Source: a virus. From it: a stretch of DNA of 23,875 nucleotides. Position numbers and translations under genes: made by a program. The notes under the pieces were generated by a model. That model was not told the DNA's origin. It saw nothing but the letters and a program-made list of their open reading frames with translations, and did not search any database. The stretch covers positions 1-23,875 of the IMG/VR virus record IMGVR_UViG_3300037134_000107; one strand, written 5' to 3'. Shown here piece by piece: positions 1 to 16,612 of this stretch. Each line of letters opens with the position of its first letter. Position 1 is the first letter of the stretch.

Positions 1-158
1 GGTCGCGGTCGCGGTCGGAGTCGTGGTCGCGGTCGCGGTCGCGGTCGCGGTCGGGGTCGTGGTCGCGGTCGTGGTCGGGGTGGTCGCGGTCGGGGTCGCG
101 GTCGTGGTCGGGGTCGGGGTCGCGGTCGTGGTCGCGGTCGCGGTCGCGGTCGCGGCCC
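1..158 (+). repeat. Hexamer array 1, (TCGNGG)n, runs off the left edge
   Basis: Counted by hand from position 3, there are 25 consecutive six-base units of form TCGNGG. The N position is C in 14, T in 5 and G in 5; one unit is TCGGAG, and none has A at N. One irregular extra TGG codon follows a TCGGGG unit, and the same irregularity occurs in array 2. The unit has no stop codon in any of the six frames, so long spurious ORFs cover it. In the TCG-NGG frame it encodes Ser alternating with Arg, Trp or Gly, and that frame ends at TGA 162-164, which overlaps the ATG at 161. The left end of the array lies outside the window. Confidence 0.95.
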
Positions 159-164
159 CTATGA
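3..164 (+). CDS. Possible Ser-Arg/Trp/Gly dipeptide-repeat peptide (5' truncated)
   Basis: The frame that reads the array as TCG NGG codons is open from the window edge to TGA 162-164, giving 53 residues of S-R, S-W and S-G dipeptides ending R-P-L. Its stop overlaps the next gene's start in an ATGA quartet, the arrangement used throughout this operon and repeated exactly at array 2. That shared frame and junction is the argument for translation. The start codon would lie left of the window. The product would be basic, disordered and Trp-containing. No family is recognised. The alternative is that the array is non-coding and open only because its unit lacks stop codons. Confidence 0.3.
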   Translation, partial: SRSRSESWSRSRSRSRSGSWSRSWSGWSRSGSRSWSGSGSRSWSRSRSRSRPL

Positions 165-475
165 ACGCCGCAAGCTTGCAGAGCGCGGTCGCTCTTCTCG
201 GCGCGACCGCGCTCCAAATCAAAGCAGAGCGCGACGCCATGGCTGCTGTGCTCCTGGCCATCGATGAGCTGTGGCGCGAGAATCACCCGAACGGCCCTGG
301 TGACCCCAATCCGTACGTGCGTATGTCAGCCGACAAGCGAATGATCTGGAGTGACCTGCGGGCCGCCCTCTCCGCGGCCGGTGTGCCACTGTATTCCGAG
401 AGGCTGCCAGAATCCGCAGACACCAACGCTCTTCGCGACGAACTCATTTCCATCATCCGGAGTCAATGCCCTTGA
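161..475 (+). CDS. Hypothetical early protein, 104 aa
   Basis: Start chosen at ATG 161, immediately after array 1. Extending upstream in frame would only add an artificial Val-Ala repeat. The protein is soluble-looking and mostly helical, with an Ala-rich N-terminus (MNAASLQSAVALLG), a region with IDELWREN and a charged C-terminus. No catalytic motif or known domain is recognised. It overlaps the next gene (466) by 10 bases, so it probably belongs to the same transcript. Its first codons, ATGAACGCC, match the starts at 974 and 1144, the other two starts associated with hexamer array 2. Confidence 0.7.
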   Translation: MNAASLQSAVALLGATALQIKAERDAMAAVLLAIDELWRENHPNGPGDPNPYVRMSADKRMIWSDLRAALSAAGVPLYSERLPESADTNALRDELISIIRSQCP

Positions 476-660
476 AAATCGCTCTAATCGTTGTCTTCTT
501 TCTGTGCGCCCTTGTGGTCGTCTTCATCCTCGCGTTCGGGATCTACTGCGCGAAGTGCTCGTACATGGAATGGCGCGAACGCCGTGACATGCACATCCGC
601 AACAAGAACATCAACCGTTACAACATGGGTGCCTTTCGCGGCACCAAGGACAGGTTCTGA
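466..660 (+). CDS. Small single-pass membrane protein, 64 aa
   Basis: The N-terminus has one strongly hydrophobic stretch (residues about 4-27, IALIVVFFLCALVVVFILAF) followed by a basic, charged tail (YMEWRERRDMHIRNKN). This predicts a single membrane span with the tail in the cytoplasm. It starts inside the end of the upstream gene, and its stop TGA shares one base with the next start at 660, so translation is likely coupled. No family recognised. Small inner-membrane proteins among phage early genes are often host-takeover or superinfection factors, but nothing here shows which. ORFs in other frames at 484-679 are shadows. Confidence 0.7.
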   Translation: MPLKIALIVVFFLCALVVVFILAFGIYCAKCSYMEWRERRDMHIRNKNINRYNMGAFRGTKDRF

Positions 661-977
661 TGAAAATCGCACTGTATAAGGCAGTCGGCGGTGGTTACTT
701 CATGGTGTGGGACGTGAGCATGGGCGGCGGGAGCGGCATCGTTGAAGGCTACGTCCGCACCAGCGAATGGATCGACGTGGAATTCTCGCCGCGTGAGAGC
801 AAGGAGTCGATCGCGGAAGAGGTGCACCAACTCGACGTGAAGGCGGACGAGATACGCGCCACCATGGGCCGCCAGCTCATCGCGATCGAGACCGCGAAAG
901 CGAACCTGCTCGCGATCAGCGATCAGCGCAGCAGCGTGGCCGAAGAGGTCGAGGGCCCGAACGAGTACGTGCCATGA
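660..977 (+). CDS. Hypothetical early protein, 105 aa
   Basis: It starts MKIALYKAVGGGYFMVWDVSMGGGSG. The N-terminal half looks like beta strands. The C-terminal half (about residues 45-95) is a charged helix with heptad-like spacing and may be a coiled coil. No recognised domain. The start overlaps the upstream stop by one base (TGATG). The TGA at 975-977 overlaps ATG 974, giving an ATGA junction that leads straight into the array-2 reading frame. Function unknown. Confidence 0.7.
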   Translation: MKIALYKAVGGGYFMVWDVSMGGGSGIVEGYVRTSEWIDVEFSPRESKESIAEEVHQLDVKADEIRATMGRQLIAIETAKANLLAISDQRSSVAEEVEGPNEYVP

Positions 978-987
978 ACGCCTGCGT
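971..987 (+). repeat. 17-bp direct repeat, left copy (flanks array 2)
   Basis: GCCATGAACGCCTGCGT here is repeated exactly at 1141-1157, 170 bp downstream, bracketing hexamer array 2. It contains the ATGA stop/start junction. The simplest reading is that the junction between the 660-977 gene and the 1144 gene was duplicated when the array arrived or expanded. Confidence 0.9.
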
Positions 988-1147
988 GGCCTTTGCAGGA
1001 TGGTCGTGGTCGCGGTCGCGGTCGGGGTCGCGGTCGTGGTCGCGGTCGGGGTCGGGGTCGTGGTCGTGGTCGTGGTCGCGGTCGTGGTCGTGGTCGCGGT
1101 CGGGGTGGTCGCGGTCGTGGTCGCGGTCGCGGTCGTGGTCGCCATGA
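974..1147 (+). CDS. Possible small Ser-Arg/Trp repeat peptide, 57 aa
   Basis: From ATG 974 (ATGA overlap with the upstream stop) the frame reads a ten-residue leader MNACVAFAGW. It then runs through array 2 as alternating Ser and Arg/Trp/Gly and ends S-P at TGA 1145-1147, which again forms ATGA with the next gene's start at 1144. By hand count the tract holds about 23 Ser, 9 Arg and 11 Trp including the leader Trp. Both junctions match the operon's usual coupling, which favours real translation. On the other hand, the leader is an exact copy of the first five codons of the 1144 gene, so this could be debris from a duplication. No homologous family is known to me. Confidence 0.4.
   Translation: MNACVAFAGWSWSRSRSGSRSWSRSGSGSWSWSWSRSWSWSRSGWSRSWSRSRSWSP
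1001..1141 (+). repeat. Hexamer array 2, (TCGNGG)n
   Basis: After TGG at 1001 there are 22 TCGNGG units (N = C in 9, T in 9, G in 4, never A) plus a final TCG. The same irregular TCG GGG TGG TCG CGG block seen in array 1 occurs here, so the two arrays share ancestry. Total length keeps all frames open. The + strand is G-rich, with GG doublets every six bases, so two-tetrad G-quadruplex formation is conceivable. The array is not CRISPR-like because there are no unique spacers. Confidence 0.95.
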
Positions 1148-1157: not shown

Positions 1158-1413
1158 CAAAACCGGCGCCATTGTCCACATGCTCGCACATGACCTGGTA
1201 TTCCATGCCGATCTGTATTTGGTCGGCGGCGCCATGGTCGTTCGCGCCAACGGCCCACTCAAGCGCGACAGCAACTGCTGGCCATCGACGGCCGCGTTCT
1301 GCCAGGACCACAAGCCCACCTACGAATTGCACGACCGGCCGTCGGCCGGTTTCTGGCGCGAGGACCTAGGCATCTTCGTGGTTCCCGCCGATCAACTCAA
1401 GGAGTTACCATGA
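1144..1413 (+). CDS. Hypothetical early protein, 89 aa
   Basis: Start set at ATG 1144, within the right 17-bp repeat. An upstream in-frame start at 1000 exists only by reading the array as Val-Ala repeats. The sequence begins MNACVKTGAIVHMLAHDLVFHADLYLVGG and includes two Cys, several His and a C-terminal FVVPADQLKELP. It looks like a small alpha/beta protein. No family recognised. Its stop at 1411-1413 overlaps the exonuclease start (ATGA at 1410), so it is probably co-translated with the recombination module. Confidence 0.65.
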   Translation: MNACVKTGAIVHMLAHDLVFHADLYLVGGAMVVRANGPLKRDSNCWPSTAAFCQDHKPTYELHDRPSAGFWREDLGIFVVPADQLKELP

Positions 1414-2231
1414 CCACCGCCGACCAGTACCACGCCGATCCTGCGCCCACAGCGTCGCTCTCATCGAGCATCGCGAACATCCTGCTCACCGAGTCGCCAA
1501 AGCACGCATGGCTCGCGCATCCACGGCTGAATCCCAAATACGTGCGCGAGACCGATTCGCGCTTCGACCTGGGGTCCGCCGCGCACATGATGCTGCTGGA
1601 ACGGCGCTCAGATGCGATCGTGCGCGTCGCGGCGGACGATTGGCGCACGAAAGCCGCAAAAGAAGCGCGCGACGCCGCGCAGGCCGAAGGCAAATACGCC
1701 GTACTTGAGCGCCAGTATGATGACATCGTGGCGATGTGCACGGTGGCCCGCGAGTTCGTCGCTGCAAGTGAGTTGGGCGACATCCTTGTCACGGGCGAAC
1801 CCGAGCAGACCCTCATCTGGCAGGAGGGCGTGACGCACTTTCGCTGCCGCCCGGACATGCTGTCCCAGGACCGGCGCGTCGTGCTCGACTATAAGTCGAC
1901 GGGCAGCGCATCGCCCGAAGCGTTCTCGAAGCAGATCGGCCGCATGAACTACGATCTGCAGGCGGAGTTCTATGTGCGTGGCATCGAGGCGGCGACAGGT
2001 ATCGCGCCCGTATTCGTGTTCTTGGCGCAGGAAATCACGCCGCCCTACGCGTGCTCCCTGACGTCGCTGTCGAATGCCTACCGCGCCATCGGCCAAGCGA
2101 AGGTTCAGCACGCTCGGTCGATCTGGGAGCGCTGCATGCGCGATAACGACTGGCCGGCGTACGACAATCAGATCCACTACGTCGAGCCGCCGCCATGGCA
2201 GTTGAACGAATTAGAGCGGGATTTACTGTGA
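1410..2231 (+). CDS. RecE-like PD-(D/E)XK exonuclease
   Basis: Putative phage exodeoxyribonuclease of the exonuclease VIII/PD-(D/E)XK group, expected to resect double-stranded DNA ends so that a partner protein can recombine the single strand. Visible motifs, in order: DLGSAAH with His59 (the GxxxH-type motif), Glu132 in GEPEQT, Asp149 in CRPDML, Asp160 and Lys162 in VLDYKST, and the QAEFY motif at 184-188. This order and spacing match the RecB-like nuclease fold. At 273 aa it is the size of the nuclease domain alone, with no long N-terminal RecE extension. The C-terminus (PPPWQLNELERDLL) appears intact. It is coupled to the gene before (ATGA) and the gene after (GTGA). The family is fairly certain; the in vivo substrate is inferred. 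Confidence 0.85.
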   Translation: MTTADQYHADPAPTASLSSSIANILLTESPKHAWLAHPRLNPKYVRETDSRFDLGSAAHMMLLERRSDAIVRVAADDWRTKAAKEARDAAQAEGKYAVLERQYDDIVAMCTVAREFVAASELGDILVTGEPEQTLIWQEGVTHFRCRPDMLSQDRRVVLDYKSTGSASPEAFSKQIGRMNYDLQAEFYVRGIEAATGIAPVFVFLAQEITPPYACSLTSLSNAYRAIGQAKVQHARSIWERCMRDNDWPAYDNQIHYVEPPPWQLNELERDLL

Positions 2232-2746
2232 GCCGGCGCACTCATTTCGTGTGCACTGTCGACGGATGTGGACTGCCGCATGACGCGAAGGGCCTTTGCC
2301 ACTCTCATTACAAACGATGGAAACTTCACGGCGATCCATTGGTGGTAAAAGCTGTTCCGCGTGGCAGCGCCCGCATAGACAAGCGTTCCGGGTATCGGAT
2401 TTTTAACAAGACTCCTGAGCATAGGCAGGTAGCAGAAAAGGCTCTGGGCCACCCTTTGCCTCCTGGCGCGATCATTCACCACGCTGATGAAGACAGGAAA
2501 AATAATGATCCCAGCAACTTGGTAGTTTGCCCGGACAACAAATATCACCGCCTGATACATCAGAGGCTAAATTCTTTCAAAGCAAGTGGACACTACGACT
2601 GGAGGAAATGCCCATATTGCAAGCGCTACGATGATCCTGAAAACATGAAGAAAGAAAGGACGGGGTACGAACCTCGCTTCGTTCACGCGCTGTGTAGAAA
2701 CTTGCTACAAAAAACCATGCGGAACACACGCCATGTTTCAGTTTAA
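2228..2746 (+). CDS. HNH homing-type endonuclease
   Basis: A free-standing HNH nuclease of about 172 aa. GTG 2228 is preferred because it makes a GTGA overlap with the exonuclease stop; ATG 2195 is the alternative. Counting from the GTG, an N-terminal zinc-knuckle region contains Cys9, Cys14 and GLCHSHY at about 23-29. The nuclease core has His84-His85, Asn97 and the distal His107 and His111, the HH-N-H-H pattern of the His-Me finger. A second Cys pair (KCPYC, 128-131) follows. Such enzymes are usually mobile and cut intron-less or cognate alleles. The gene is clearly AT-richer than its neighbours, consistent with recent arrival. It overlaps the ATPase gene by 14 bases. Confidence 0.85.
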   Translation: MSRRTHFVCTVDGCGLPHDAKGLCHSHYKRWKLHGDPLVVKAVPRGSARIDKRSGYRIFNKTPEHRQVAEKALGHPLPPGAIIHHADEDRKNNDPSNLVVCPDNKYHRLIHQRLNSFKASGHYDWRKCPYCKRYDDPENMKKERTGYEPRFVHALCRNLLQKTMRNTRHVSV

Positions 2747-3674
2747 AAGAGCTGTCAGAGAGAATGTAGGTTTACTAATTGGTTTGTGCGGTGGCACTGG
2801 CGCTGGCAAGACGTTTTCCGCTATGCGCTTAGCCTCTGGTATCGCCGCAGAAAAACCGTTTGCCGTGATCGACACAGAGGCCGGTAGAGCAAAGCATTAT
2901 TCTGATCAATTTTTGTTTGATCACGGTGACTTAAAGCCGCCGTTCTCCCCGCAGGCATACGCCGAAGCGATACTCGCGGCTGACGAGGCGAAATATCCTG
3001 TGATAGTGGTTGACTCAACTTCTCTAGAATGGAGCGGCGAAGGTGGAGTGCTCGAGATGCACGAGGCCGAACTCGACCGCATGGCGGGGGACGACTGGAA
3101 GAAGCGCGAGGCCTGCAAAATGGCGGCGTGGATCAAGCCCAAGACGCAGCACAAGAGGATGGTGCAACGATTGCTGCAGGTGCGTGCCCATTTGATCCTG
3201 TGCTTTCGCGCCGAAGAGAAGGTGGAAATGGTGCGCGACGAGGAAACTAAAAAGATGGTAATCGTGCCAAAGAAGTCGCTCACCGGCATCAACGGCTGGA
3301 TCCCGGTCTGCGAGAAGAGCCTACCCTTCGAATTGACAGCATCGTTCTTGCTCACCGCCGACGCACCCGGCATGCCGAAACCCATTAAATTACAGGAACA
3401 GCATCGTGTGATGTTCCCGCTCGATAAGCCGATCAACGAGGAGTCCGGCAAGCGAGTCGCGCAGTGGGCGTCCGGCGTGAAGGCGTCACCGATCAGCGAC
3501 GCCGCCCTCGACACTCTGTGCATGACGATGGACGTCAAGGAGATCAAGGCGCTCGAAACCGCGTTCGGCAAGGCTTATCGACAGGCCAGGACGGCTCAAG
3601 ACGAGCGAGCCATGAAGAAGCTGCAGGCGGTATACGACGGCCAGAAAGAAGCGATAGCGCTTGGCAATGTATGA
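2733..3674 (+). CDS. P-loop ATPase, Sak4/RecA-fold phage recombinase-like
   Basis: 313 aa. Walker A GGTGAGKT lies at residues 20-27 with Lys26. The DTEAGR segment (47-52) and Walker B VIVVDS (90-95, Asp94) follow, then a hydrophobic strand with CFRAEEK (157-163). This layout, with the opening AVRENVGLLIGL, fits the phage nucleotide-binding AAA_24/Sak4-like RecA-fold family. Next to a RecE-like nuclease, a role in single-strand annealing or recombination is likely; a general replication ATPase is the alternative. Residues about 250-313 form a helical tail of the sort found at the C-terminus of phage annealing proteins. The first about 95 codons are AT-rich like the HNH gene and the remainder is GC-rich, suggesting a recombinant gene. 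Confidence 0.75.
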   Translation: MFQFKRAVRENVGLLIGLCGGTGAGKTFSAMRLASGIAAEKPFAVIDTEAGRAKHYSDQFLFDHGDLKPPFSPQAYAEAILAADEAKYPVIVVDSTSLEWSGEGGVLEMHEAELDRMAGDDWKKREACKMAAWIKPKTQHKRMVQRLLQVRAHLILCFRAEEKVEMVRDEETKKMVIVPKKSLTGINGWIPVCEKSLPFELTASFLLTADAPGMPKPIKLQEQHRVMFPLDKPINEESGKRVAQWASGVKASPISDAALDTLCMTMDVKEIKALETAFGKAYRQARTAQDERAMKKLQAVYDGQKEAIALGNV

Positions 3675-3712
3675 GCGCCTCAGGATCGGGAATAGAGGGG
3701 GAGCAGGCATGA
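3671..3712 (+). CDS. Possible 13-codon coupling micro-ORF
   Basis: ATG 3671 overlaps the ATPase stop (ATGA). The frame reads MSASGSGIEGEQA and its TGA at 3710-3712 overlaps ATG 3709 of the next gene. It may serve only to carry ribosomes across the gap. It is too short for a functional claim, and chance is possible. Confidence 0.2.
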   Translation: MSASGSGIEGEQA

Positions 3713-4359
3713 GCTTTGACGAACAACCGGATGGCGACCCGCACGGCGAGTGCGCGGCTGAGATCGCCGCCGAACTTCGCCTTGCAGTAAGTGCCCGAGA
3801 TTACGCCAACGACATGATCGACAGGGAGCGTGCCCGCGTGCAGGCGCTCGCCGCCGAGCTTGCCGAAGTGAAAGCCGACCGCAAGCTATCCGAGGATGCG
3901 CGGCAGATCGAAGCGAAGCAGATTCGAGAGGCATGGGCTCGCATTCGTGCGTTGGAGGCGGCGCTGGGCGAATACGGGAGCCACACTCGAAGCTGCCAGA
4001 AGATGGCATTCGCATGGACCAGTGATTGCGACTGCGGATTCCAAGAAGTTAAGGATTTACTCAAGAACACGTCCCCCAGTGGAGCAATCCGCCCACAATC
4101 GGAAACGGAAGATGGGTATAAGCCAGAAGCTGTTGAGCGAATCTTGGCAGCAAAAAACGCGCCACGCGATCCCAGCGCGCCGACTGACCCCAAGGAGTTC
4201 TTGAAGTGGCTGCATGGTGACTCACAGTCCGAACCGCGGGGTGAGTGTTCCGGCTGCAACGGGCGCGGTGAAGTGGCGGGGCATGATCCCGATGGGTCGT
4301 GGGATACGCGCGAGTGTCCGCACTGCAAGGGGTCGGGGAAGGAAACGGATGGGTTATGA
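3709..4359 (+). CDS. Coiled-coil protein with DnaJ-type zinc module
   Basis: 216 aa from ATG 3709. This start is preferred over TTG 3661 or ATG 3667 because AGGGGGAG lies seven bases upstream. Residues about 17-88 are a long charged helix or coiled coil rich in Ala, Glu and Arg. A middle Cys cluster (Cys96, Cys107, Cys109) precedes a linker. The C-terminus has two CxxCxGxG elements, Cys180/Cys183 (CSGCNGRG) and Cys203/Cys206 (CPHCKGSG), which together make one zinc site as in DnaJ. There is no J domain, so it is not a DnaJ co-chaperone. Binding to DNA or protein is plausible. It is the last sizeable gene of the rightward operon. Confidence 0.7.
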   Translation: MSFDEQPDGDPHGECAAEIAAELRLAVSARDYANDMIDRERARVQALAAELAEVKADRKLSEDARQIEAKQIREAWARIRALEAALGEYGSHTRSCQKMAFAWTSDCDCGFQEVKDLLKNTSPSGAIRPQSETEDGYKPEAVERILAAKNAPRDPSAPTDPKEFLKWLHGDSQSEPRGECSGCNGRGEVAGHDPDGSWDTRECPHCKGSGKETDGL

Positions 4360-7388: not shown

Positions 7389-10334
7389 TCATGCCAGTTT
7401 TATCGAGGCGGGGGCGTTTTGGTATGGCGAGGTGACACCCTTTATCGACCAGTGACATACGACGTCTACTGCGGTAGGGCTGGCCATGGTACTGCCTGCC
7501 GCTGGGCATGTGACGCTATAAGCGATGCTGCCTGTGCCCGCTGTAGTGGGGCCGCTAAGCGTGAAGGTCGTGGTGGGTGGCGCCAGCGTCGTCTCGCCAT
7601 TGACACCCGTGCGTAGCGGTGTCGTTATCGCATTCTGGTTCATCGGCGACGCCGTCGTGCCGCCCAGCTGGGCGATCTGGATGCTGACGCGGCCGACTTC
7701 TTGGCCTTCGCCGACGCTGTTCTTCACGATCGTGGTACTCCAAGTGAGTTCCATCACGGCGACAGCGTTGCTCACCTGCGGTGTCAGCGTGGCTAGCAAC
7801 GCGGCAGTCGGATAACTGCCGCCGATCGCTAAGACTTGGTTTAGTTCAGCCTCACCCGAGAGGTCGAACCAGTCGATGGCGCGCTGTGATGCTGGTGTGC
7901 CACCCAACAGAGTGATGTTTTTTAATTTAGGCGCAACCAGGCTGGTATTCACTCCGCCGCTATTGACCGATACGATTGCGTAAACGGAAGTCGTATTGCT
8001 CATATCGACGGTCAAGCCGTTGATTGTGACACCGGTGCTGAGCTTGGCTGGTGTTACTAAGATGACCGGAATGGCGCCGACACTCGCAGAGAACGCACAC
8101 TGGACATTGCTGATGTTTATGTTGGCCACACCATCAAGCGTAATGGGCGCCGCTGCGCCATGAGTGCGGAAATTCGGGGCGTTGATATTGATGCCGCTCA
8201 CAGTGCCGCTCACAGCGCCGTTACTGGCCGATATGCCTCCCCAGCACGTATCAAACGCAACGCCGTTGATGTTGACAGCATTTATCGTATCGCCGCTCAG
8301 TTGCGGCTGCAGCACGATGCAGCAACTGCTGGCGTTGCCGCTAATGCCATAGACCGGACCGAATACCATCCCGTTGATCGTAAGACTCTCGACATTCGAT
8401 AGAAACATGCCGGTCTGCTGCACATTGACCATAGTGCCACCGTCGAATCGCACATCTTGAAATTTGGTGGTCGCTGGAACAGCGGGATCTCGAATCTGCA
8501 TGATTCCGATGAGACCAAAGTCCCAAACGCAATCGACGAAGCGGAAGTCGCCTCCGTGGCTCAGGTAAATGTCATAGAGACCGAGGAAACCGATCTGATC
8601 GAAATAGCCATCGCCCAAGCTGATTGCCACGCCGCCTGTGGTCAGTGCGTTGCACCGTAGCATGTACATGCTACCCGGGGGGGTGAATGAATAGCCGATG
8701 TTTTCCTGCGAAAACTGAAGCTGCGAGAAGGTGAAGCCGCAAGAATTTCCAGCGCTGCTTTCTGCGATCGTGAGGAGATTGCAATAAATTGCGTGCTGTA
8801 TGAGGGTGGATCCGCCAATCCAGTTCCGGCCTTTGCCGTAAACCGAGAACATGCCCCGCAATACGATCGGGTAGGACAGGTGGAACGCACCGGCATCAAG
8901 TTGAATCGAGGTATTTCGATAACCAGCGAGGCCGGGCGAACTTGCCCCATTGCCGAACGCGAGATCGGCCGCATTCGCGCAAACTTGGAGAGCCGCAGTC
9001 GCATCTAATCGTACCAGCGCGCCCGTAACCGCCATCACCGCCGGATTGTTGAGCGTAACAACGCTGCCAGAAACACTCTTGATCCAAGTCGTCAGATAGC
9101 TTCCAAACCCGGAGACCAGTGGTAACGCGGAACCGCCCCACGGGTTGCCGATCGACGTCGTACTTGTCACGCCGTCCGATGTATTTGGTGTGACGAGTAA
9201 GAGCACGCCATTGACATAAATCAAATAGAGCACGGCGCCGCTCACCGCCGTCCATGTTAGGGAAAAGTTCGGCGTGGCTCCGCTTGAGATATTCTGTGTA
9301 GTGCTTGCAATACTGATGCCGCGGCCAAGGGAAACGGAGGCAATCTGGACACCGTAGGTAGTGCCAGTGCCAGAGACATTGGTAAGAACAATCCCGGTCG
9401 GTGTGCCAGGTACAGCACCCGCACCTCCGACCTGGATGCCCGCGCCGACCTCCATATCGTTCACGCTCGACAGCGTGAGTTGGGTTGAACCAGCTGCTAT
9501 CGTTCCCGTTGGAATTTGGTCACTCGGTTTTCCACCAAACCAACGCGGGTTCCAGCCCGTATTCGCATCAGCCAATGGCCCAAAGGTAGTCGTCCCGGGA
9601 CCGGAAAACACAATTTGCGAACTGGCAATGAGCGTGGCGTTGACGGTAAGCGTGATTCCCGCAGCGACCCACAGCACCGCGCCCGGCTGTGGCAAAATTT
9701 TCGCCGTGAGATTCATGTTGCTGCCGATCAGATACAGGCCCGGCTGATACGTCATGGTTTGGCCGGCGATCTGCGCGGCAGCAATCGTCGTACTCACATT
9801 TTGCGTGAGCGTTCCCGCGGTGATGTCCGCAATCTGCGCCGCGGTTAAATAGCGAAATGCTGTATAGGGCGCGTATTGGGTGCTGACTGGCGCCACACTC
9901 GCATTGCCCTCAGCAATCGTTTGTGGGTACGAGCCGGTGCTCGAGAAGGAGAAAAATTGCCACGCCGTGCCCGTGTACATGAGCTGTATAGGCTGAGCTT
10001 GTATCTCCCCGCCGGTGAGCGCGGCGCCCAGCGGATTGACGATCGCAATCGGACTCCCGCCGGCAAAACTCAGCGTCGATGGGCCCGTGTTCGCATTCAG
10101 CGGAATGAATCTAACGAGCAATCCCGTAGACAGCGTTGGCGCGACCGCCGGCTGCGGCTGCAAGGTCGCGAGCGCCACCACGTAGGCATTGGCCGCGCCG
10201 GAGTCGGCGCCAAAAAACGCCGCCTTCGAATAGAGTTCTGTCGAGTTCGCGTTGAACGCATTCCACGGCACTTGACCGCGTGCGCCGGTGCCATCGCCTG
10301 CGGCACTGCCCGTGAAGATTACTTGTTGTGTCAT
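7389..10334 (-). CDS. Large tailspike/receptor-binding protein with beta-helix
   Basis: 981 aa. The N-terminal about 40 residues (FTGSAAGDGTGARG, WNAFNANSTELYS) match the tail-anchor opening common in phage fibres. Residues about 50-135 are a small beta domain. A first pectate-lyase-like stretch is at about 170-265. Residues about 350-400 resemble an inserted FN3-like fold (SLTWTAVSGAVLYLIYVNG). The main parallel beta-helix spans about 455-800 with repeated short Gly/Asn turns (INGMVFG, ININAPNF, INISNVQC). A C-terminal beta domain ends the protein. Role: adsorption and possibly cleavage of surface polysaccharide; catalytic residues cannot be assigned by eye. Its ATG overlaps the PASTA gene stop (ATGA). 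Confidence 0.8.
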   Translation of the reverse strand: MTQQVIFTGSAAGDGTGARGQVPWNAFNANSTELYSKAAFFGADSGAANAYVVALATLQPQPAVAPTLSTGLLVRFIPLNANTGPSTLSFAGGSPIAIVNPLGAALTGGEIQAQPIQLMYTGTAWQFFSFSSTGSYPQTIAEGNASVAPVSTQYAPYTAFRYLTAAQIADITAGTLTQNVSTTIAAAQIAGQTMTYQPGLYLIGSNMNLTAKILPQPGAVLWVAAGITLTVNATLIASSQIVFSGPGTTTFGPLADANTGWNPRWFGGKPSDQIPTGTIAAGSTQLTLSSVNDMEVGAGIQVGGAGAVPGTPTGIVLTNVSGTGTTYGVQIASVSLGRGISIASTTQNISSGATPNFSLTWTAVSGAVLYLIYVNGVLLLVTPNTSDGVTSTTSIGNPWGGSALPLVSGFGSYLTTWIKSVSGSVVTLNNPAVMAVTGALVRLDATAALQVCANAADLAFGNGASSPGLAGYRNTSIQLDAGAFHLSYPIVLRGMFSVYGKGRNWIGGSTLIQHAIYCNLLTIAESSAGNSCGFTFSQLQFSQENIGYSFTPPGSMYMLRCNALTTGGVAISLGDGYFDQIGFLGLYDIYLSHGGDFRFVDCVWDFGLIGIMQIRDPAVPATTKFQDVRFDGGTMVNVQQTGMFLSNVESLTINGMVFGPVYGISGNASSCCIVLQPQLSGDTINAVNINGVAFDTCWGGISASNGAVSGTVSGININAPNFRTHGAAAPITLDGVANINISNVQCAFSASVGAIPVILVTPAKLSTGVTINGLTVDMSNTTSVYAIVSVNSGGVNTSLVAPKLKNITLLGGTPASQRAIDWFDLSGEAELNQVLAIGGSYPTAALLATLTPQVSNAVAVMELTWSTTIVKNSVGEGQEVGRVSIQIAQLGGTTASPMNQNAITTPLRTGVNGETTLAPPTTTFTLSGPTTAGTGSIAYSVTCPAAGSTMASPTAVDVVCHWSIKGVTSPYQNAPASIKLA

Positions 10335-10864
10335 GGTACGGGTGTCGGAATGCTGGGCTGGTTGATGACGGTAAATCCTGAGACGGTGATCGTCACTTGC
10401 GTCTGCTGCGTAAATTGCGTGCCCGCCGCGATCGACTGCGAAATCACGTATTGCGGCAACACGGTCGAGGACAGCACCCAGGTGGGCGATGCGATCAAAA
10501 ATCCCGCCTGCAATAAAACAAGTTGTGCATCGTAGTAGAAACGCCCGATCACATTTGGGACGGTGACGACTTTAGGAGTCGGCGCGGGCCCCAGAGAAAT
10601 GACGAGGGGTACGTACGATCCGGGAACGGCCGATAGCAGCAGCGGCACATAGCCCGTGATCACAAATCCTTCGGGTACCAGCGGATCATAGACGTAAGTC
10701 AGTTGCCCGACATTGACGCTCACGGCCGCAAAGGCGGTAACGGCGGCAGCAAGCGTGGTCGGCTCGTAGCCGTCCGCAGTCCACCCATAGAAGCCATCCG
10801 CGGTCCACTGATTAAAGCCATCAGCAGTCCATTCGGGGTTCGTGTTAAGGGGAGCGGCGGGCAT
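10331..10864 (-). CDS. PASTA-domain virion protein with WTADG repeats
   Basis: 177 aa from ATG 10864, one base after the upstream stop. Residues 12-35 hold three tandem eight-residue repeats beginning WTADG(F/Y). After an Ala-rich helix comes a partial PASTA-like half (VPEGFVITGYVP to VISLGPAP). A full PASTA-like domain follows (about 99-162: VPNVIGRFYYDAQLVLLQAGF, then VISQSIAAGT and VTITVSG). PASTA domains elsewhere bind peptidoglycan stem peptides or act as spacers. Placed between two tailspike genes, it is probably part of the receptor-binding apparatus, perhaps an adaptor joining a spike to the tail. That role is inference. Confidence 0.65.
   Translation of the reverse strand: MPAAPLNTNPEWTADGFNQWTADGFYGWTADGYEPTTLAAAVTAFAAVSVNVGQLTYVYDPLVPEGFVITGYVPLLLSAVPGSYVPLVISLGPAPTPKVVTVPNVIGRFYYDAQLVLLQAGFLIASPTWVLSSTVLPQYVISQSIAAGTQFTQQTQVTITVSGFTVINQPSIPTPVP
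10760..10831 (-). repeat. Three 24-bp tandem repeats encoding WTADG(F/Y)xx
   Basis: Residues 12-35 of the PASTA protein are three imperfect copies of an eight-codon unit: WTADGFNQ, WTADGFYG, WTADGYEP. DNA copies differ at several third positions, so expansion is not very recent. Aromatic-acid-Gly spacing like this suggests a small Trp-lined binding surface or a short beta-hairpin repeat. Confidence 0.85.
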
Positions 10865-10865
10865 C

Positions 10866-12725
10866 CTATGACATCCTCGCCCAGAACATCGTGCCGCCAT
10901 TGTTCATGGCGATCAGGAAGGCGTTAGTGTTGGCCGCGACGGTCGTGGTGAGTGTCAGCGTGCCGTTGTAATTGATGTTCTGCGCGGCCGATGAGACCAC
11001 GACCGCATTGGCTTGGGGGTTTGCGATGCGAACCTCCCAGCCCACCATATTGGTGTTCAGCGCCGGCAGCGTCAGCGTCCCGCCCGCGGCGGTCGTGAAG
11101 GCCATGTTGTTGCCGTTGCCCACGGCGATGGTAGCGCCCGTTGCGATGGATCCCGTGTTAAGAGCTATCGGGAAATTCCACACCAGTGTGTTGAAAAAGT
11201 TCCCGCTTGCGGTGAGGTCGGGCCCCTGGCCACGGATCGACAGTTGACCGAAGCCGGACGTGCCGTTCGCGGTAAAACCAATGCCCTGGTAATTGGCGTT
11301 GAAGATCGTCGGCGCCGCGCCATACATCTGCACGCGCTGGGCAGTCGAGTCGAAGTCGCACACCACACCAACGTTCTGCAGGTTGATACGGATGCCCTGT
11401 TGACCAAATAGACCACGGATGCAAATGTCAGCGGCTGATATCGCCGAATGGGTGATTCCGGTCTCCAAGTCGAAGCCGTTCAAGCCCTGCAGCACGATGT
11501 GGGCCGTGCCGCCGTTCTCAAGATCGCTCGCGCCCTTGACCGAGCAGTACGTGATGACCGACCCGGCGTCCGCCGTGCCCGCCTCGAAGACTGGCCAGCC
11601 ATGATGGGTGATGTTGACCGCCGTGCTGCCGGTGGCAACGAGCGCGACCGAGCCCGATGCACCGCCAATGGAGTTGGCTACCGTGATCGAGCCCGCACCG
11701 GAGGCGCCCGACACGGAGAGCACGAAATAGATTTGCGTCGCTACAAAACCATTCACGCTCGCCGAGAAGATCACCGGCATCCCGACCCCGTACTGCGTCA
11801 GATCTGTTACGCCGATCGTGCTCGAGGAAGCGCTCATCGTCGCGGCCTGGGTGTTGGTCACCGTCGCGCCGGAGCCGCCCAAGTCGAAGACCGAGAGATT
11901 ATTCTGGTTCGAGCTTGAGCGCGCCGACAATTGCAGCACGCGGCCCGAGCCTTGCGCCGTATTATCGCCGCCGGTGATCTTCGAGAAATGGGAGTTGCCC
12001 ATATTCCACAAGGTCGTGCCGGACGCGGTGACCATCATCCCGTGAGCATTGAAGTAGTAACTGATCCGCTCGAATGAGCACTGCGCAACGTTCTCCATCC
12101 ACATGCCCCAGGCGGTGCAGTTTTGGATGAACAGGCCATGGAAGTAACCGTACTCGCAGCCGCCCTGATACAGCGCGCCACACTTGATGCCGTAGCTGCC
12201 GTTGGAGAGCCCCATGTTGGATACTTCTGGGCAATTGATCCACGAGTTAAGGAGTTGCGCCTGGGTCGTGTACGGAGCGCCTAAATCGGTGGAATTGGCG
12301 GCGAACAGCGGGAAGGTGCCATTGCCTTGGATGATCGTTCCGCCGGTGAGCACCGGCGAGCCAGAATTAGACAGGTTATAGCCGCAGCCGTTGTAGGTCA
12401 CGCCACTCAAGAGCGGTAGCGATTGCGTGAGCGTGAGCGTCCCCGGAGGAAGCTGCACGATCGCACCGCCCACGACAGATGCGGCTTGAGCTGCGGCAAT
12501 CACCGCCGCGGTCGTCAGGGCGGTGGGGATGAAAAATATCTGCGACAGCGCGTCATCGAACATGATCGGCGATGACTGCCAGGTGAGGCCATTCGAGTAC
12601 TGCACGCCCAGATCGCTTGTCGCCGCGGGCGTGCCGATGGGGTACGCGGAAGCAGCCGGCAGGTTCGCGGAAGAATACGAGCCCTGCAGGGGCATCGGGT
12701 ACGCGAGACTTTGGGCGAGCGTCAT
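10866..12725 (-). CDS. Second tailspike, beta-helix (pectate-lyase-like)
   Basis: 619 aa. The N-terminal segment (residues about 10-55: SANLPAASAYPIGTPAATSD, VQYSNGLTWQSS) resembles tail-attachment modules of other phage spikes. The central part is a right-handed beta-helix, from the PPGTLTLTQSLPLLSG start near residue 92 through repeated GLFIQNC/FERISYY/FSKITGG rungs. A roughly 75-residue beta insert (about 300-375, GMPVIFSASVNGF to GGASGSVALVATGS) interrupts the helix. The last about 100 residues are a beta-sandwich-like C-terminal domain (TLTLPALNTNMVGWEVRI). Expected role is adsorption or depolymerase activity. It differs from the 981-aa spike, so the virion may carry two receptor-binding specificities. 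Confidence 0.78.
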   Translation of the reverse strand: MTLAQSLAYPMPLQGSYSSANLPAASAYPIGTPAATSDLGVQYSNGLTWQSSPIMFDDALSQIFFIPTALTTAAVIAAAQAASVVGGAIVQLPPGTLTLTQSLPLLSGVTYNGCGYNLSNSGSPVLTGGTIIQGNGTFPLFAANSTDLGAPYTTQAQLLNSWINCPEVSNMGLSNGSYGIKCGALYQGGCEYGYFHGLFIQNCTAWGMWMENVAQCSFERISYYFNAHGMMVTASGTTLWNMGNSHFSKITGGDNTAQGSGRVLQLSARSSSNQNNLSVFDLGGSGATVTNTQAATMSASSSTIGVTDLTQYGVGMPVIFSASVNGFVATQIYFVLSVSGASGAGSITVANSIGGASGSVALVATGSTAVNITHHGWPVFEAGTADAGSVITYCSVKGASDLENGGTAHIVLQGLNGFDLETGITHSAISAADICIRGLFGQQGIRINLQNVGVVCDFDSTAQRVQMYGAAPTIFNANYQGIGFTANGTSGFGQLSIRGQGPDLTASGNFFNTLVWNFPIALNTGSIATGATIAVGNGNNMAFTTAAGGTLTLPALNTNMVGWEVRIANPQANAVVVSSAAQNINYNGTLTLTTTVAANTNAFLIAMNNGGTMFWARMS

Positions 12726-12733
12726 TTACTGAC

Positions 12734-13126
12734 CTAACTCATATCCACGCCGAAAACATACACGTCCGCCGTGCAGGCGGCGGTGGATCCGGTGGTGAGC
12801 GAGAGGACCAAGTTCGTGGTTCCAAGCGTCGCCGTGAGGGCAATGACCGCGGGCACGATAACACCGGAGGCGAGCGAGACCCACGATTGAGCGACCGCCA
12901 CCCAGGCGTTGCCGCCCTTGGAGGCGGCATCGTAGATGCCGCCCGCGCACGCGACGGAGGCCGCGCCCGATCGTTGGCGCGCGAAAATACCGGTGACGGT
13001 ATACGCCGAGCCGCCATACACCTTCGTGAGCGGCTGATCGGTCGTCAACTGGAAATTGAGCGCGCTGCCCTTAAAGAGCAGTTGATTGGCGTTGCCAGCG
13101 GCAAATCCTGGGTTGAATACGGGCAT
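12734..13126 (-). CDS. Small tail-associated beta protein, 130 aa
   Basis: The N-terminus PGFAAGNANQLLFKGSALNFQL and later strands (YTVTGIFARQRSG, IVPAVIALTATLGTTNLVLSL, ADVYVFGVDMS) predict a compact beta-sandwich. It lies between a 354-aa tail protein and a tailspike, with 3-bp and 8-bp gaps, so it is co-translated with them. It may be a fibre-tip or baseplate-type accessory protein. No family recognised; a role in virion structure is inferred only from position and composition. Confidence 0.55.
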   Translation of the reverse strand: MPVFNPGFAAGNANQLLFKGSALNFQLTTDQPLTKVYGGSAYTVTGIFARQRSGAASVACAGGIYDAASKGGNAWVAVAQSWVSLASGVIVPAVIALTATLGTTNLVLSLTTGSTAACTADVYVFGVDMS

Positions 13127-13129
13127 GGC

Positions 13130-14194
13130 CTATAACCCGGTCGAGCCCATGCTGATATCGGAGACTCCGGCGGTACCGTTGGCCGTGATCCAGAAGCCGC
13201 GCACGCGGGCGGTCGAGACCGGATTCGGGAATTCGAACGTCGCGCCGGCCGCCAGCACATAGGTAAAGTTGGTTGCACTCGCGACGCCCGCGCCGGACGG
13301 GTCGACCAGCAAATAGAGCTTCGAGGTCGAGTCATTGCTCACGATCAGCATCACCCGATTCGCATTGACCCCGGTAATCGCTGTATCCGCTGCCGCAGAG
13401 ACCACATTCGTGGGCGCGCTCGGATAGGTAGCCACTGCATTGTTGGCGGCGAACTGATTGCGCCCGGTATCTCCCAAGATATTGGCATTGATTTGCAACC
13501 CTGAGGAGACCCCGCCATTCGAGATGAGCAGGAACGTGAGAGGGAGAATGTTACTGGCCGGTCCCAGCGCGCCTGACGTGAATTGCGAGACGACGTTCGC
13601 TTCCGGGTAGACGCCGTCCAAGGACGCAAATCCGTATTCGCCGCGAAATCTCATCCAGTAGCGATGCGGCGAATAGTCTTGGCCGATCTGCATCGCGGAG
13701 ACGCCGCCGTTGACCCCGTAGGTCATATCCGCCAATTGAGTACGTACGCCGCCGGCGTACGTGACCACGGAGAGCTGGCCGGCCAAGGACATCTCGAAGA
13801 AAAATCCATTGGTGGCGGGCGCCGCAATCGTCGGCGTTCCGGGCGTGGTGCCGAATCCGAACAGGGCGTAGTTGTTGGCGGGGAATCCCGCGGCGATCGC
13901 GGCATTGCCCACATTCACCGTATTCAGCATTTCCAAAAACGCGGGGCTTCTGGGGAAGAAGGTGCGCCGAGTCTGAAAGAGCGAATAGCCGTTCGCCGTC
14001 ACGCCACTCACGAGGTTCATCTGGCCCGCCGTCCACGCGGGCGCGGTGCCCCCGCCGCCGGAGGTCGAGAGCCACCGGTTGACGATATCGGGGGTTGTGC
14101 TGAAGTCCTCGTACCACTGAACCAACGCGTCTTGTGTGATGCGCAGCCGCCCCAGCGGGTCCTGCGTCGATTGAGTGGGCGACACGTAAGGCAT
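13130..14194 (-). CDS. Tail/receptor-region structural protein, 354 aa
   Basis: Opens PYVSPTQSTQDPLGRLRITQ. Residues about 25-240 form a lectin-like or jelly-roll region (WYEDFSTTPDIVNRW, GYSLFQTRRTFFPRSPAFLEM, HRYWMRFRGEYGFASLDGVYP). The last about 90 residues are a separate small beta domain (NRVMLIVSNDSTSKLYLLVDPSG, RVRGFWITANGT). Its position before the spike genes supports a tail or head-fibre role. No enzymatic motif seen. Confidence 0.6.
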   Translation of the reverse strand: MPYVSPTQSTQDPLGRLRITQDALVQWYEDFSTTPDIVNRWLSTSGGGGTAPAWTAGQMNLVSGVTANGYSLFQTRRTFFPRSPAFLEMLNTVNVGNAAIAAGFPANNYALFGFGTTPGTPTIAAPATNGFFFEMSLAGQLSVVTYAGGVRTQLADMTYGVNGGVSAMQIGQDYSPHRYWMRFRGEYGFASLDGVYPEANVVSQFTSGALGPASNILPLTFLLISNGGVSSGLQINANILGDTGRNQFAANNAVATYPSAPTNVVSAAADTAITGVNANRVMLIVSNDSTSKLYLLVDPSGAGVASATNFTYVLAAGATFEFPNPVSTARVRGFWITANGTAGVSDISMGSTGL

Positions 14195-14196
14195 GG

Positions 14197-14532
14197 TTAT
14201 TTGTCCGTCTTGGGCGGCCCTAGGCGCCGTTTCGTGCCCACGGGGAAGGGCATCGCGAAGGTTTGCGCGAAATCCGGCTCAGGTCCCGAAATCGAGGCGC
14301 AGCCGCCGCTCGGCTTGCACACGGCCGATTTCGACTCGCGATATTGGTGCTGCCCGTAGTCCTGTATTTCGAGGGGGCGAGAGCGCCCAGGGGCTCCAGG
14401 AGTGCCGAGTGCGCTGACCTGGATTGGCGTCGGCAGGTCGAAATGCCCGGTGCCCAAGGGGTCGTAGCGCTCCTCGAGCGGCCCGTAGGTGGTCTCCATC
14501 CGTACGCCGCGGCGAAAGAAATCTCGCTTCAT
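14197..14532 (-). CDS. Small Pro/Gly-rich late protein, 111 aa
   Basis: Start placed at ATG 14532 because GAGGAG lies seven bases upstream; the longer frame to 14583 has no comparable site. The sequence MKRDFFRRGVRMETTYGPLEERYDP is followed by a Pro/Gly-rich, largely disordered middle and a basic end (GTKRRLGPPKTDK). It sits 10 bp after the 63-aa gene and 2 bp before the 354-aa gene. No recognised domain. A small virion or assembly factor is possible. Confidence 0.6.
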   Translation of the reverse strand: MKRDFFRRGVRMETTYGPLEERYDPLGTGHFDLPTPIQVSALGTPGAPGRSRPLEIQDYGQHQYRESKSAVCKPSGGCASISGPEPDFAQTFAMPFPVGTKRRLGPPKTDK

Positions 14533-14542
14533 GTCACTCTCC

Positions 14543-14734
14543 TCACAGGTCATCGGGATTGAAATGATCGTCCTTATCCACAATCGCGTGGCGCACCTTC
14601 TCCCACTGGATCGCGGTCATGATCGCCTTGCGGCGCCGCTCGATCCGCAGCTCGTCCGCATTTTCATCGCCGCTGTCTTTCAGCAGCTCCTTGATCGCCT
14701 TGTCCAGGGTCGGATTCGGTGACTCAGTGCTCAT
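14543..14734 (-). CDS. Small acidic/basic helical protein, 63 aa
   Basis: Starts MSTESPNPTLDKAIKELLKD. The rest is charged helix (ELRIERRRKAIMTAIQWEKV) ending HFNPDDL. It is hydrophilic and soluble, with no membrane span. It is the first leftward gene after the interval containing the reverse-oriented micro-operon. No strong ribosome binding site precedes its ATG, so expression may depend on transcripts reading through from the ejection genes. Confidence 0.55.
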   Translation of the reverse strand: MSTESPNPTLDKAIKELLKDSGDENADELRIERRRKAIMTAIQWEKVRHAIVDKDDHFNPDDL

Positions 14735-14824
14735 TTTGAGATACCCGCGCTGTCATTATGTCCCATATACCCCTTTTTGGACGAATTTGCGCCTACCGTA
14801 GCGCCACACCTCAGGAGATCGCCC

Positions 14825-14944
14825 ATGTTGACCAAAACCCTCTTGTCCACTGGCATTGTCATTGTGCTGCTCATCGGCCTGGACGTCGCGAATGGCTGGC
14901 TGCAGGACTTCGTGGGCGTGCTGCGCTACATCCTGGGCGGCTGA
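14825..14944 (+). CDS. Small membrane peptide on the opposite strand, 39 aa
   Basis: Encoded rightward inside the leftward late operon. AGGAG (14813-14817) lies seven bases before ATG 14825. The product is MLTKTLLSTG followed by a hydrophobic stretch (IVIVLLIGL), then ANGWLQDFVGVLRYILGG, giving one short membrane helix and an amphipathic tail. About 34 of 39 codons end in G or C, typical of coding sequence here. No family recognised. Candidate roles are a moron-borne membrane effector, a type I toxin-like peptide or a lysis modulator. The sequence supports only that it is a small membrane peptide. Confidence 0.55.
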   Translation: MLTKTLLSTGIVIVLLIGLDVANGWLQDFVGVLRYILGG

Positions 14945-14945
14945 G

Positions 14946-15017
14946 ATGCACATCCCGTTGCTCTCGTTCCTCATCTTTTGCGCCCTGTGCTGGGCCTTCA
15001 ACGCGGCCAATCACTGA
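14946..15017 (+). CDS. Second tiny hydrophobic peptide, 23 aa
   Basis: Starts one base after the stop of the 39-aa ORF. It reads MHIPLLSFLIFCALCWAFNA with a charged end and is hydrophobic almost throughout. Its stop overlaps the end of the leftward 533-aa gene (15011) by seven bases. Close spacing to the preceding ORF suggests a two-gene unit. At this length chance is a real alternative. Confidence 0.35.
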   Translation: MHIPLLSFLIFCALCWAFNAANH

Positions 15018-16612
15018 CCGATGCCCGCTTGATCGGCGCCTGGAAGCTGGCCGGGTATCGCGGCAGCGGCCCCTTGCGCTGCTCCGGCCGCCAAGCCGGC
15101 GCCACGCTTTCCGCCACCCAGCAAAAAGACCTGCAGGCCCTTGAGGCCTGCCTGGCTGTACAGAAATGGCACACTACCCATGGCGCCGAGCACTAGCGGG
15201 TTCTGCATGATAGCCGCTGCGCCGCCGGTGGCTACATCCATGGCACCCAGCCGTCCCGCCGTTCCCGAGTCAGGCTCGCGATTACCGAGCACCGCCTCAC
15301 CCGCCTCACCCAATTTTTGCTGGCGCGCCGTGCCTTTGGCGAAGGCGCTGTGATCCTTGGAGGCATCTTGCGCGCGCACCGCACCCATGTACTGACTCGC
15401 CGTGGGGATACCCTCTTTCGCACCTTTGTACGCACCCGCGCGCTCCGCAATTTTGTACTGCGCATAGCCGTTGCGCAGCTTCGAATACTGCTTGGACAGC
15501 GCGGGGTTCTCTCGCTCCACCATGTCATCCATAGCCTCACGGGCGAACTCGATGGCCTTCCCCACCGTGCGGTCCCCGGGGTTAGTCGATTTCTGATAAT
15601 CCTCGATGTGACCGCGCAAAGTCTCGCGAATGCTCTGCAACGTCTCGCCAGACGCCTTGCCGGAGGAGGTGAATTTGGAAATGATGTCCTTGTCCAAGAT
15701 CGCGTTGACCTTCGCTTGCTGCGCCGGATCCAACGTCGAACTCGCGACCATCGTCTTGATCTGATCGAGCGCGCCGCGGAAGGAGGTTGGCGCGGACGCG
15801 GCGGCCGAGCCGCCCGGTGCAGGCAACGCGGCCGGCGGCGTTGAATTCAGGTCACCCTTCATCTTGGGCAAGATGTCATCGTAGGCCTGTGAAAACTTCT
15901 CACCCGCCTGACGGATCGCTTCGTGGCCGGCGAGCCCTTTGGTGTTGGACTGCCCGATTTCCTTCAACGAATCATTGATGGTGGCTTCTTGAAACTGCGC
16001 GACCGACTTAGCCTTCGCGTTTTTTATGATGTTGCCGACGAACGGTAGCGCGGTCAGTTTGTCCTCGAAATTCCGCACACCGCCGCCCTTGATGTCGCCG
16101 GGGGTCATGGTAACGCCCTTGTCGGCGAGGGCGCGCACTTGCGGCGAGACATTTTTCAGCGGTTTGGGCAGCGCCTGTGCGGCGCGCTCCGACGCAGTCA
16201 GCATGCCAACCGAGCGACGCGCAGCACCAGCGCCGCCGCCCATCAGCAGCGAGCTCACCGCCTCTGATGCCTTTCCCGCGGTCGAGGCTGGGGGCGGGAA
16301 CGCTGCGTCTAGACGACGCTCCTGGCCGGCGGAGGGGAGCTCATAGGGGTAGTTACCGCTCTTGTCCTTGCCTTTGATCAAATTGCCGACTGCCACGGGC
16401 ACGTCCGCAACCATCGTAGGTAGGCCGGTGATCGCCTGAGAGCCAGCGCGCACCGCCTCATTGCCAACTCCCTTCGCCGTCTCCCAGGCCTGCTGACCCC
16501 ATGATTGTTGCGGTGCAACACCCTCGGTTTTTACTTGGGGCGGGGCAGACGCTTCTTGCTCGGCGCGGGCACGAAACTCGAACTCTTCCTGTTCATGTAG
16601 TGGGGTGGGCAC
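15011..16612 (-). CDS. Internal virion (ejection) protein candidate, 533 aa
   Basis: GTG 16612 is chosen because AGGAG lies seven bases upstream. It overlaps the preceding gene by 20 bases. The protein is Ala/Lys/Gln-rich and mostly helical. It has a Gln/Glu-rich N-terminus, a Gly/Ala segment (about 123-131), a long helical centre (FEDKLTALPFVGNI, TLRGHIEDYQKSTNPGDRT) and a hydrophobic, Gly/Ala-rich C-terminal region (about 455-520). It is the third of three such genes after the nozzle gene, the place of podovirus ejection proteins that enter the cell envelope with the DNA. No transglycosylase motif was seen. Confidence 0.65.
   Translation of the reverse strand: MPTPLHEQEEFEFRARAEQEASAPPQVKTEGVAPQQSWGQQAWETAKGVGNEAVRAGSQAITGLPTMVADVPVAVGNLIKGKDKSGNYPYELPSAGQERRLDAAFPPPASTAGKASEAVSSLLMGGGAGAARRSVGMLTASERAAQALPKPLKNVSPQVRALADKGVTMTPGDIKGGGVRNFEDKLTALPFVGNIIKNAKAKSVAQFQEATINDSLKEIGQSNTKGLAGHEAIRQAGEKFSQAYDDILPKMKGDLNSTPPAALPAPGGSAAASAPTSFRGALDQIKTMVASSTLDPAQQAKVNAILDKDIISKFTSSGKASGETLQSIRETLRGHIEDYQKSTNPGDRTVGKAIEFAREAMDDMVERENPALSKQYSKLRNGYAQYKIAERAGAYKGAKEGIPTASQYMGAVRAQDASKDHSAFAKGTARQQKLGEAGEAVLGNREPDSGTAGRLGAMDVATGGAAAIMQNPLVLGAMGSVPFLYSQAGLKGLQVFLLGGGKRGAGLAAGAAQGAAAAIPGQLPGADQAGIGQ
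15133..15151 (-). terminator. Hairpin with T-run inside the end of the 533-aa gene
   Basis: GCAGGCC (15133-15139) and GGCCTGC (15145-15151) form a perfect 7-bp stem with a five-base loop. On the minus strand it is followed after a few bases by five T. It lies within the coding sequence about 120 bases before the stop. It could attenuate leftward transcription before the tail genes, or be chance in GC-rich DNA. Confidence 0.25.

Follow-up and report, generated by a model that had tools for sequence, protein, structure and literature searches.

A small Ser-[Arg/Gly/Trp] repeat gene, paired in phages with a gene of predicted Sm/LSm fold, as the origin of twin hexamer arrays

The window analyzed here, 23,875 bp of an IMG/VR viral record, holds two arrays of the hexamer TCGNGG, at 1–155 and 1001–1141 (spacing 845 bp). 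What are these arrays, and why do both run in the same frame into the start of the following gene? An earlier note, made from the letters of the window, had described twin arrays of one six-base unit about 850 bp apart, with a common irregular block and with a TCG-NGG frame that ends each time in a TGA overlapping the next ATG. All of this was found as described: the TGA at 162–164 overlaps the ATG at 161, and the TGA at 1145–1147 that at 1144. The exact 4-unit pattern occurred 32 times in the window as opposed to 0 times for the reversed control. One unit of array 1 reads TCGGAG. We conclude with high confidence that each array is a copy of a small gene coding for protein, SX, consisting of a short head and a tract in which Ser alternates with Arg, Gly or Trp, and that SX and X, a gene of predicted Sm/LSm fold whose stop is overlapped by the SX start in most phages, make up a conserved two-gene module of phages.

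The window arrays and their tandem relatives

The features referred to below are as follows.
1..164, plus strand: 3′ portion of a repeat gene of the S-[RGW] type in frame 3, tract ...SRSRSRSRPL and stop, truncated by the contig start; the stop overlaps the next ATG
75..89, plus strand: irregular block TCGGGGTGGTCGCGG (S-G-W-S-R), with a second occurrence at 1100–1114; present in three of the four L130 copies
161..475, plus strand: ORF after array 1, 104 aa, without family match
974..1147, plus strand: complete S-[RGW] gene, MNACVAFAGW, S-[RGW] tract, SP and stop, 57 aa; homologous copies in L128 and L130
974..987, plus strand: ATGAACGCCTGCGT, direct repeat copy 1 and start of the repeat unit; opens each tandem copy in L130
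1144..1157, plus strand: ATGAACGCCTGCGT, second copy of the direct repeat, which now forms the 5′ end of the gene after array 2; an N-terminal piece absent from L141
1144..1413, plus strand: gene downstream of array 2, 89 aa; its L141 homologue starts near window residue 13
1410..2231, plus strand: exonuclease VIII-like gene (phrog_412, E 1.1e-65)
2733..3674, plus strand: ATPase resembling Sak4-like annealing proteins (phrog_1366, E 2e-58; phrog_124, E 8e-5)
3284–3565 of the related contig L130: gene X, beginning MSEKVVSGPWVIGQNYLIRTVTMIDTGRV and ending LPAKQK and stop

The record starts inside array 1, and the 5′ start of the array-1 ORF is outside the contig. A megablast of the whole window against phages gave zero matches. 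When the 1144–1413 gene was used as the query, three near-identical contigs were recovered, two of which (L128 and L130) carry the complete locus, in the order divergent HTH gene, small gene, gene X and three tandem SX copies. The tandem copies each begin ATGAACGCCTGCGTGGCCT(T/A)TGCAGGATGG(TCGNGG)n. The trio is followed by the three genes at 161–475, 466–660 and 660–977 of the window, and then by a fourth copy, corresponding to 974–1147. Each SX copy in these two contigs encodes MNACVA(F/Y)AGW, the S-[RGW] tract and a stop that overlaps the next ATG (ATGA). Window 1–164 shares the 3′ end CGGCCCCTATGAACGCCGCAAGC with the third tandem copy, in which the head, MNACVAYAGW, is complete; the start sought by the earlier note to the left of the window is thereby supplied. 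The irregular block is an inherited anchor of the SX copies of the window phage.

The 14-bp direct repeat ATGAACGCCTGCGT that flanks array 2 represents the first bases of the repeated SX unit itself. In a more distant relative, L141, the homologue of the 1144–1413 gene starts further in and the array is absent; since L141 has no array, the fourth copy looks like a displaced member of the post-X cluster. The most fitting reading of array 2 of the window is that of a single copy displaced from the tandem cluster behind X. The first codons of the 1144–1413 gene (1144–1180) seem to be derived from an S-[RGW] head, with 14 bp in common, and would be a new N-terminus relative to L141.

The whole SX gene is tandemly duplicated in L130, L018, L097 and L071, and tracts differ between close relatives. 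When the window is aligned with L133 (same contig as L130), zero differences are seen in the 813 bp that separate the arrays and the right flank of array 2 is 98.7% identical, whereas array 2 shows 12 substitutions and 12 gap columns. Similarly, the last SX copy before the 161–475 gene has 24 residues in L130, as compared with at least 52 codons of tract in the window. Thus, of the suggestion that the arrays are a mobile or expandable element, the second half stands in part, as whole-gene tandem duplication and as tracts that differ among near-identical phages. The arrays are identical in L128 and L130, which come from different samples, and L129 agrees where it overlaps; this argues against random assembly error, with short-read assembly still calling for caution.

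A two-gene module in phages

The exact (TCGNGG)8 pattern recovered at least 119 stretches from IMG/VR, and just before the arrays we found the 3′ end of a single gene family, X. When loci were examined array first, with profiles of both X types (A and B, described below), X lay directly upstream in 72 of the 88 array loci with enough sequence, the median distance from the X stop to the array being 38 nt. X was found elsewhere in the locus in nine of the other 16, several of which have SX before X, bringing the loci with X to at least 81 of 88. An S-[RGW] ORF precedes X, instead of or besides following it, in L048, L085, L109, L113 and L105. A mobile element targeting gene starts, the other half of the suggestion above, does not agree with this linkage to X, nor with the SX 3′ ends: among the 139 S-[RGW] ORFs having both start and stop, only 35 end in ATGA, and a further 17 end in GTGA or TTGA.

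The reciprocal search used X only, with the arrays left aside, and gave at least 382 confirmed IMG/VR loci (one peptide pattern) plus 10 loci in MAGs of bacteria or archaea. We inspected 88 of these X loci, namely 78 newly fetched IMG/VR loci (from the best 80 of the 382) and the 10 MAG loci, and 76 had an S-[RGW] ORF downstream of X. The 12 negatives include L156, L169–171 and L229, with short or decayed S-x tracts; L148, with a TCT-type tract; and L147 (same contig as L237), with a tract immediately upstream of X at the contig start. By eye, no S-x tract was seen in five of the 88 X loci (L153, L194, L215, L223 and L230), indicating that SX is not strictly required. X was carried by two of 50,697 GenBank phages, MW202573 and MW202825, each with the repeat ORF; their records give Manatee Spring as the source and describe both genomes as circular and complete. 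MW202573 has X of type A and an SX, MNAAIIRAGLDASWSWS... to its stop, that overlaps the X stop; MW202825 has X of type B, unannotated, and two tandem S-x ORFs. Besides the window, the viral contigs L013, L014, L023, L029, L041, L056 and L067 have a contig end that falls within an S-[RGW] array. Such repeats break short-read assemblies and can hide X, which accounts for the many viral contigs that end in arrays.

The constant neighbor of SX is thus the upstream X and not the following gene. This bears on the idea that SX is a translated leader or attenuator, in which the passage of ribosomes over uniform codons would control, by way of the ATGA overlap, how the next gene is expressed. The junctions of the window do reflect operon-style overlap, in keeping with the coupling to the next gene that had been proposed, 52 of the 139 ORFs have a 3′ overlap, and a single Ser codon is used throughout each tract. 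However, the majority of SX ORFs have no overlap with the gene that follows, and a leader would need neither the balance of Arg, Gly and Trp nor heads that follow the type of X (both described below), so that we regard this explanation as improbable. A frameshift fusion of X and SX is also unlikely, as SX starts at varied offsets (−1, −4, +2, +10 and others) with its start codon kept.

The exonuclease VIII-like gene at 1410–2231 places the window cluster in an early/recombination region, to which the Sak4-like ATPase at 2733–3674 also belongs, and in other phages X–SX has helicases, primase, exonucleases and HTH repressors, that is, early and replication genes, as neighbors. In cells, X was present in two of the 45 genomes of the family of an Isosphaeraceae MAG. 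In genome samples of three phyla, the counts were 1 of 392, 1 of 398 and 1 of 301, the single positive being each time a genome already known to carry X, and none was found in plasmids. In the Isosphaeraceae MAG, X is located on a contig of 649 kb. Genes for LytB, glucokinase and G6PD lie approximately 65–80 kb away on one side of X, and one for a luciferase-like monooxygenase approximately 100 kb away on the opposite side. In this contig (L234), X–SX is close to siphovirus Gp157, ArdC-type antirestriction and TrwC relaxase genes, and the locus is an integrated element in a planctomycete. The element mixes phage and conjugative features, and its GC content is 0.52 as compared with 0.58–0.60 about 65–100 kb away.

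Coding and turnover of the repeat tract

In the tracts reached through X, Ser is encoded by TCG (958), TCA (370), AGC (258), TCT (83), TCC (20) and AGT (8). The hexamer family differs among phages (TCGNGG, TCANGG, TCTNGG or AGCNGG), and only the S-[RGW] protein reading is common to all. AGC and the TCN codons are more than one step apart. Since Ser is kept while its codon switches, the conserved entity is the residue and not the DNA word. In 51 heads, picked solely by an ATGA or GTGA overlap with the X stop, pN/pS (counted simply, from codons with a single-base difference) was 0.16 in the SX frame as compared with 1.07 and 1.87 in the other frames. Arrays in random frames, which the earlier note had named as evidence against its reading, were looked for in the (TCGNGG)8 set, and the opposite was found: among the matches listed, 91 of 121 arrays have an ATG no more than 25 codons away when read in the Ser frame, as opposed to 22 and 19 for the remaining two frames; a downstream stop is reached within 15 codons in 103 of 121, as opposed to 45 and 40. 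The results showed that SX is under selection in one reading frame and is protein-coding. The arrays thus encode small basic Ser-Arg/Trp peptides, as suggested earlier, with Gly as the third partner of Ser.

The Arg-Gly and Val-Ala frames were rejected, as they lack starts and cease to spell these dipeptides when Ser is encoded by AGC or TCA. The same codons abolish dual coding of S-X with R-G and the antisense Pro-Arg reading, both of which were likewise rejected. The consensus of the commonest head type is MNxAILRxGFD. SX gave nothing above the cut-off in Pfam, PHROGs or NCBIfam, only low-complexity matches below it.

Ser codons are 98% uniform inside a tract. For Arg, 63 tracts have CGG only, 20 have AGG only and four have both; each phage thus has three unit types. 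Across tracts, the R:G:W proportions are 0.336:0.336:0.327. Their spread between phages (S.D. 0.12–0.14) comes close to the 0.107 of a random draw and is much smaller than the 0.218 produced by blind duplication of units. Identical units stand side by side less often than expected (0.307 vs 0.348, z −5.3), and the longest internal repeats are slightly long (5.4 vs 4.3 units when shuffled), a slight excess that is a trace of duplication. In the TCGNGG units only N varies, the remaining five positions being changed in 0.4–1.4% of units. Codon use is largely restricted to NGG: 547 of 584 Gly codons are GGG, and 550 of 576 Arg codons are CGG or AGG. Protein-level selection alone does not explain this near-exclusive use of NGG codons, which would be expected if an original TGG-type codon could change in its first base only, with re-amplification of the changed units.

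These regularities raise the possibility that the arrays are a DNA-level repeat, arising by microsatellite-like slippage or as a selfish hexamer, that is merely read through. The confinement of variation to N, the uniform Ser codon of each tract, the internal repeat length and the frequent breaking of contigs in arrays are what it would predict. But it does not account for unrelated hexamers with one shared S-[RGW] reading, for the conserved heads, for the fixed position beside X or for an Arg content near one third of the units whether written with AGG or CGG. The codon-family switch and the conservation of the heads already largely refute it, and we consider it very unlikely. Even less credible is a diversity-generating retroelement or another targeted mutator as the source of the variable N. 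One variable base amid fixed neighbors fits such a process, as adenine mutagenesis of a (TCGAGG)n template would give TCGNGG. However, N is confined to three of the four bases in the tracts (A or C, rarely both), a pattern that adenine mutagenesis would not produce, and a reverse transcriptase (RVT_1, 35.2 bits) was found in just one of 35 X-bearing records, some of which may be fragments (L166 contig, G1148:C1:50766-51191).

SX is thus a protein-coding gene whose tracts are rich in Arg and Trp and essentially devoid of acidic residues; the 57-aa protein of 974–1147 has 9 Arg, 11 Trp and zero acidic residues. The analysis showed the protein to be basic and hypervariable, with a composition that predicts disorder.

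Predicted fold of X and possible functions of the pair

X had no sequence match in the PDB and nothing above the cut-off in Pfam, PHROGs or NCBIfam. Its two types are homologous (hhalign probability 96). The AF2 model of type A, built from a 31-member alignment, had a pLDDT of 91 and matched best the archaeal SmAP1 (1lnx; Z 10.3, 1.8 Å over 68 residues), and the model of type B had a pLDDT of 81 and a best Z of 10.8. When the models were compared with solved chains, Sm/LSm proteins filled all of the best 50 rows for both types (Z 9–10.8). Both types of X are thus predicted to adopt the Sm/LSm fold, a five-strand small beta-barrel; the N-terminal helix of the fold is present in the type-B model only. 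The best Foldseek E-value against the PDB was 3e-3, placing the likeness at the level of fold, without support from sequence. The Sm2 motif carries RG in the loop between strands 4 and 5. By patterns defined here (no library HMM matched), a Sm2-like RG in that loop occurs in 84 of 134 type-A domains and is absent from type B, and a Sm1-like G-x-[LVI]...L occurs in 118 of 134 type-A and 21 of 23 type-B domains.

The heads of SX follow the type of X: RxGF[DE] heads occur 69 times with type A and 0 times with type B, and KxKY-like heads 13 times with type B and 0 times with type A, a trend and not a full table, as these regular-expression classes leave many heads as ‘other’. The match may reflect only joint inheritance.

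We tentatively propose, with somewhat less than even confidence, that X would assemble into an Sm/Hfq-type ring that binds RNA, a proposal made from monomer models. The head of SX would dock on X, with the basic, disordered Arg/Trp tract serving as an RNA-binding arm supplied in trans; the pair, produced early in infection, would act as an RNA chaperone or RNP. Similarity to the Sm fold does not by itself establish RNA binding by X. Tract length and order would turn over quickly through gain, loss and shuffling of S-R, S-G and S-W units, within limits set by selection for a balanced R/G/W mixture. It is possible, if rather doubtful, that X–SX is a widespread and undescribed class of phage RNP, in which a viral Sm-type ring has a separate, hypervariable and recombining S-[R/G/W] arm that can be re-tuned through three codon pairs.

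A different function would follow if X–SX were a conflict pair, with SX as a Trp/Arg-rich cationic effector (in host takeover, superinfection exclusion or as a toxin), X holding or neutralizing it, and the tract turnover being the signature of an arms race. Two small, usually overlapping genes in an order typical of many toxin–antitoxin operons, tracts abundant in Arg and Trp and practically free of acidic residues, tract differences among near-identical phages, and a location near a repressor and early genes are all consistent with this. On the other hand, no toxin–antitoxin family matched, X occurs in hundreds of phages and almost no cellular genomes, unlike typical toxin–antitoxin pairs, and the extra tandem SX copies without extra X in L130 and L018 would unbalance an antitoxin. 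We consider a conflict pair unlikely, but it is the foremost alternative to the ring and arm.

The proposed ring and arm resemble known systems in part. RG tails occur on SmB/D1/D3 and Lsm4. SX is similar to the disordered tails of the Sm superfamily in being a low-complexity arm associated with an Sm-fold protein, and Arg-rich like the eukaryotic ones; unlike these tails, which act in cis, it comes in trans from its own gene and has a conserved head, an S-[RGW] pattern and hypervariability among close relatives. X is like the Sm/LSm/Hfq superfamily (SmAP1 1lnx, eukaryotic Sm/LSm rings) in predicted fold (approximately 68–70 residues, Z approximately 10), in being a small single-domain protein and, in most type-A members, in the Sm2-like RG loop. 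It differs in being phage-encoded, in having no sequence match in Pfam, NCBIfam or the PDB, in its separate S-[RGW] partner gene and in being known from a predicted monomer fold. The C-terminal domain of Hfq is reported to be a disordered tail that is acidic (PMC5606850) rather than basic. With the RS domains of eukaryotic SR proteins, SX shares Ser-Arg dipeptides, a resemblance only: Gly and Trp are as frequent as Arg, and there is no RRM and no sign of regulation by kinases. Phage proteins in BFVD with predicted Sm-like folds (uncharacterized proteins and DUF6948 proteins) are like X in predicted fold (best E 9e-4); since X has no Pfam hit, it is outside DUF6948 as modelled. We found no paper on phage Sm-like proteins with such partners in a search that excluded subscription journals and preprints. 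The Sm fold itself is well known; it is for SX and the X–SX pair that no counterpart was found.

X is encoded by at least 382 IMG/VR loci, most of those inspected having SX, and Pfam, PHROGs and NCBIfam contain neither. If X does form a ring and SX its arm, phages would have a minimal and quickly evolving counterpart of the Sm rings that bear RG tails, and a direct test bed for how the composition of a disordered arm tunes an RNA-binding ring. Even without this mechanism, a protein that preserves its residue pattern through wholesale switches of the codon word, each lineage making that word uniform again, is an unusually clear example of how repeats evolve when selection acts on the protein.

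Three further observations concern the rest of the window. A short stretch at 3697–3777 does not align with L133, its flanks being 98.7% and 99.8% identical, and is possibly a recombination point or a small replacement. On the minus strand, at 7389–22285, seven large ORFs (354–981 aa) had no PHROGs match at E 1e-3. Weak matches to virion-structural PHROGs at 22278–23147 are the only ones in this nearly uncharacterized late module.
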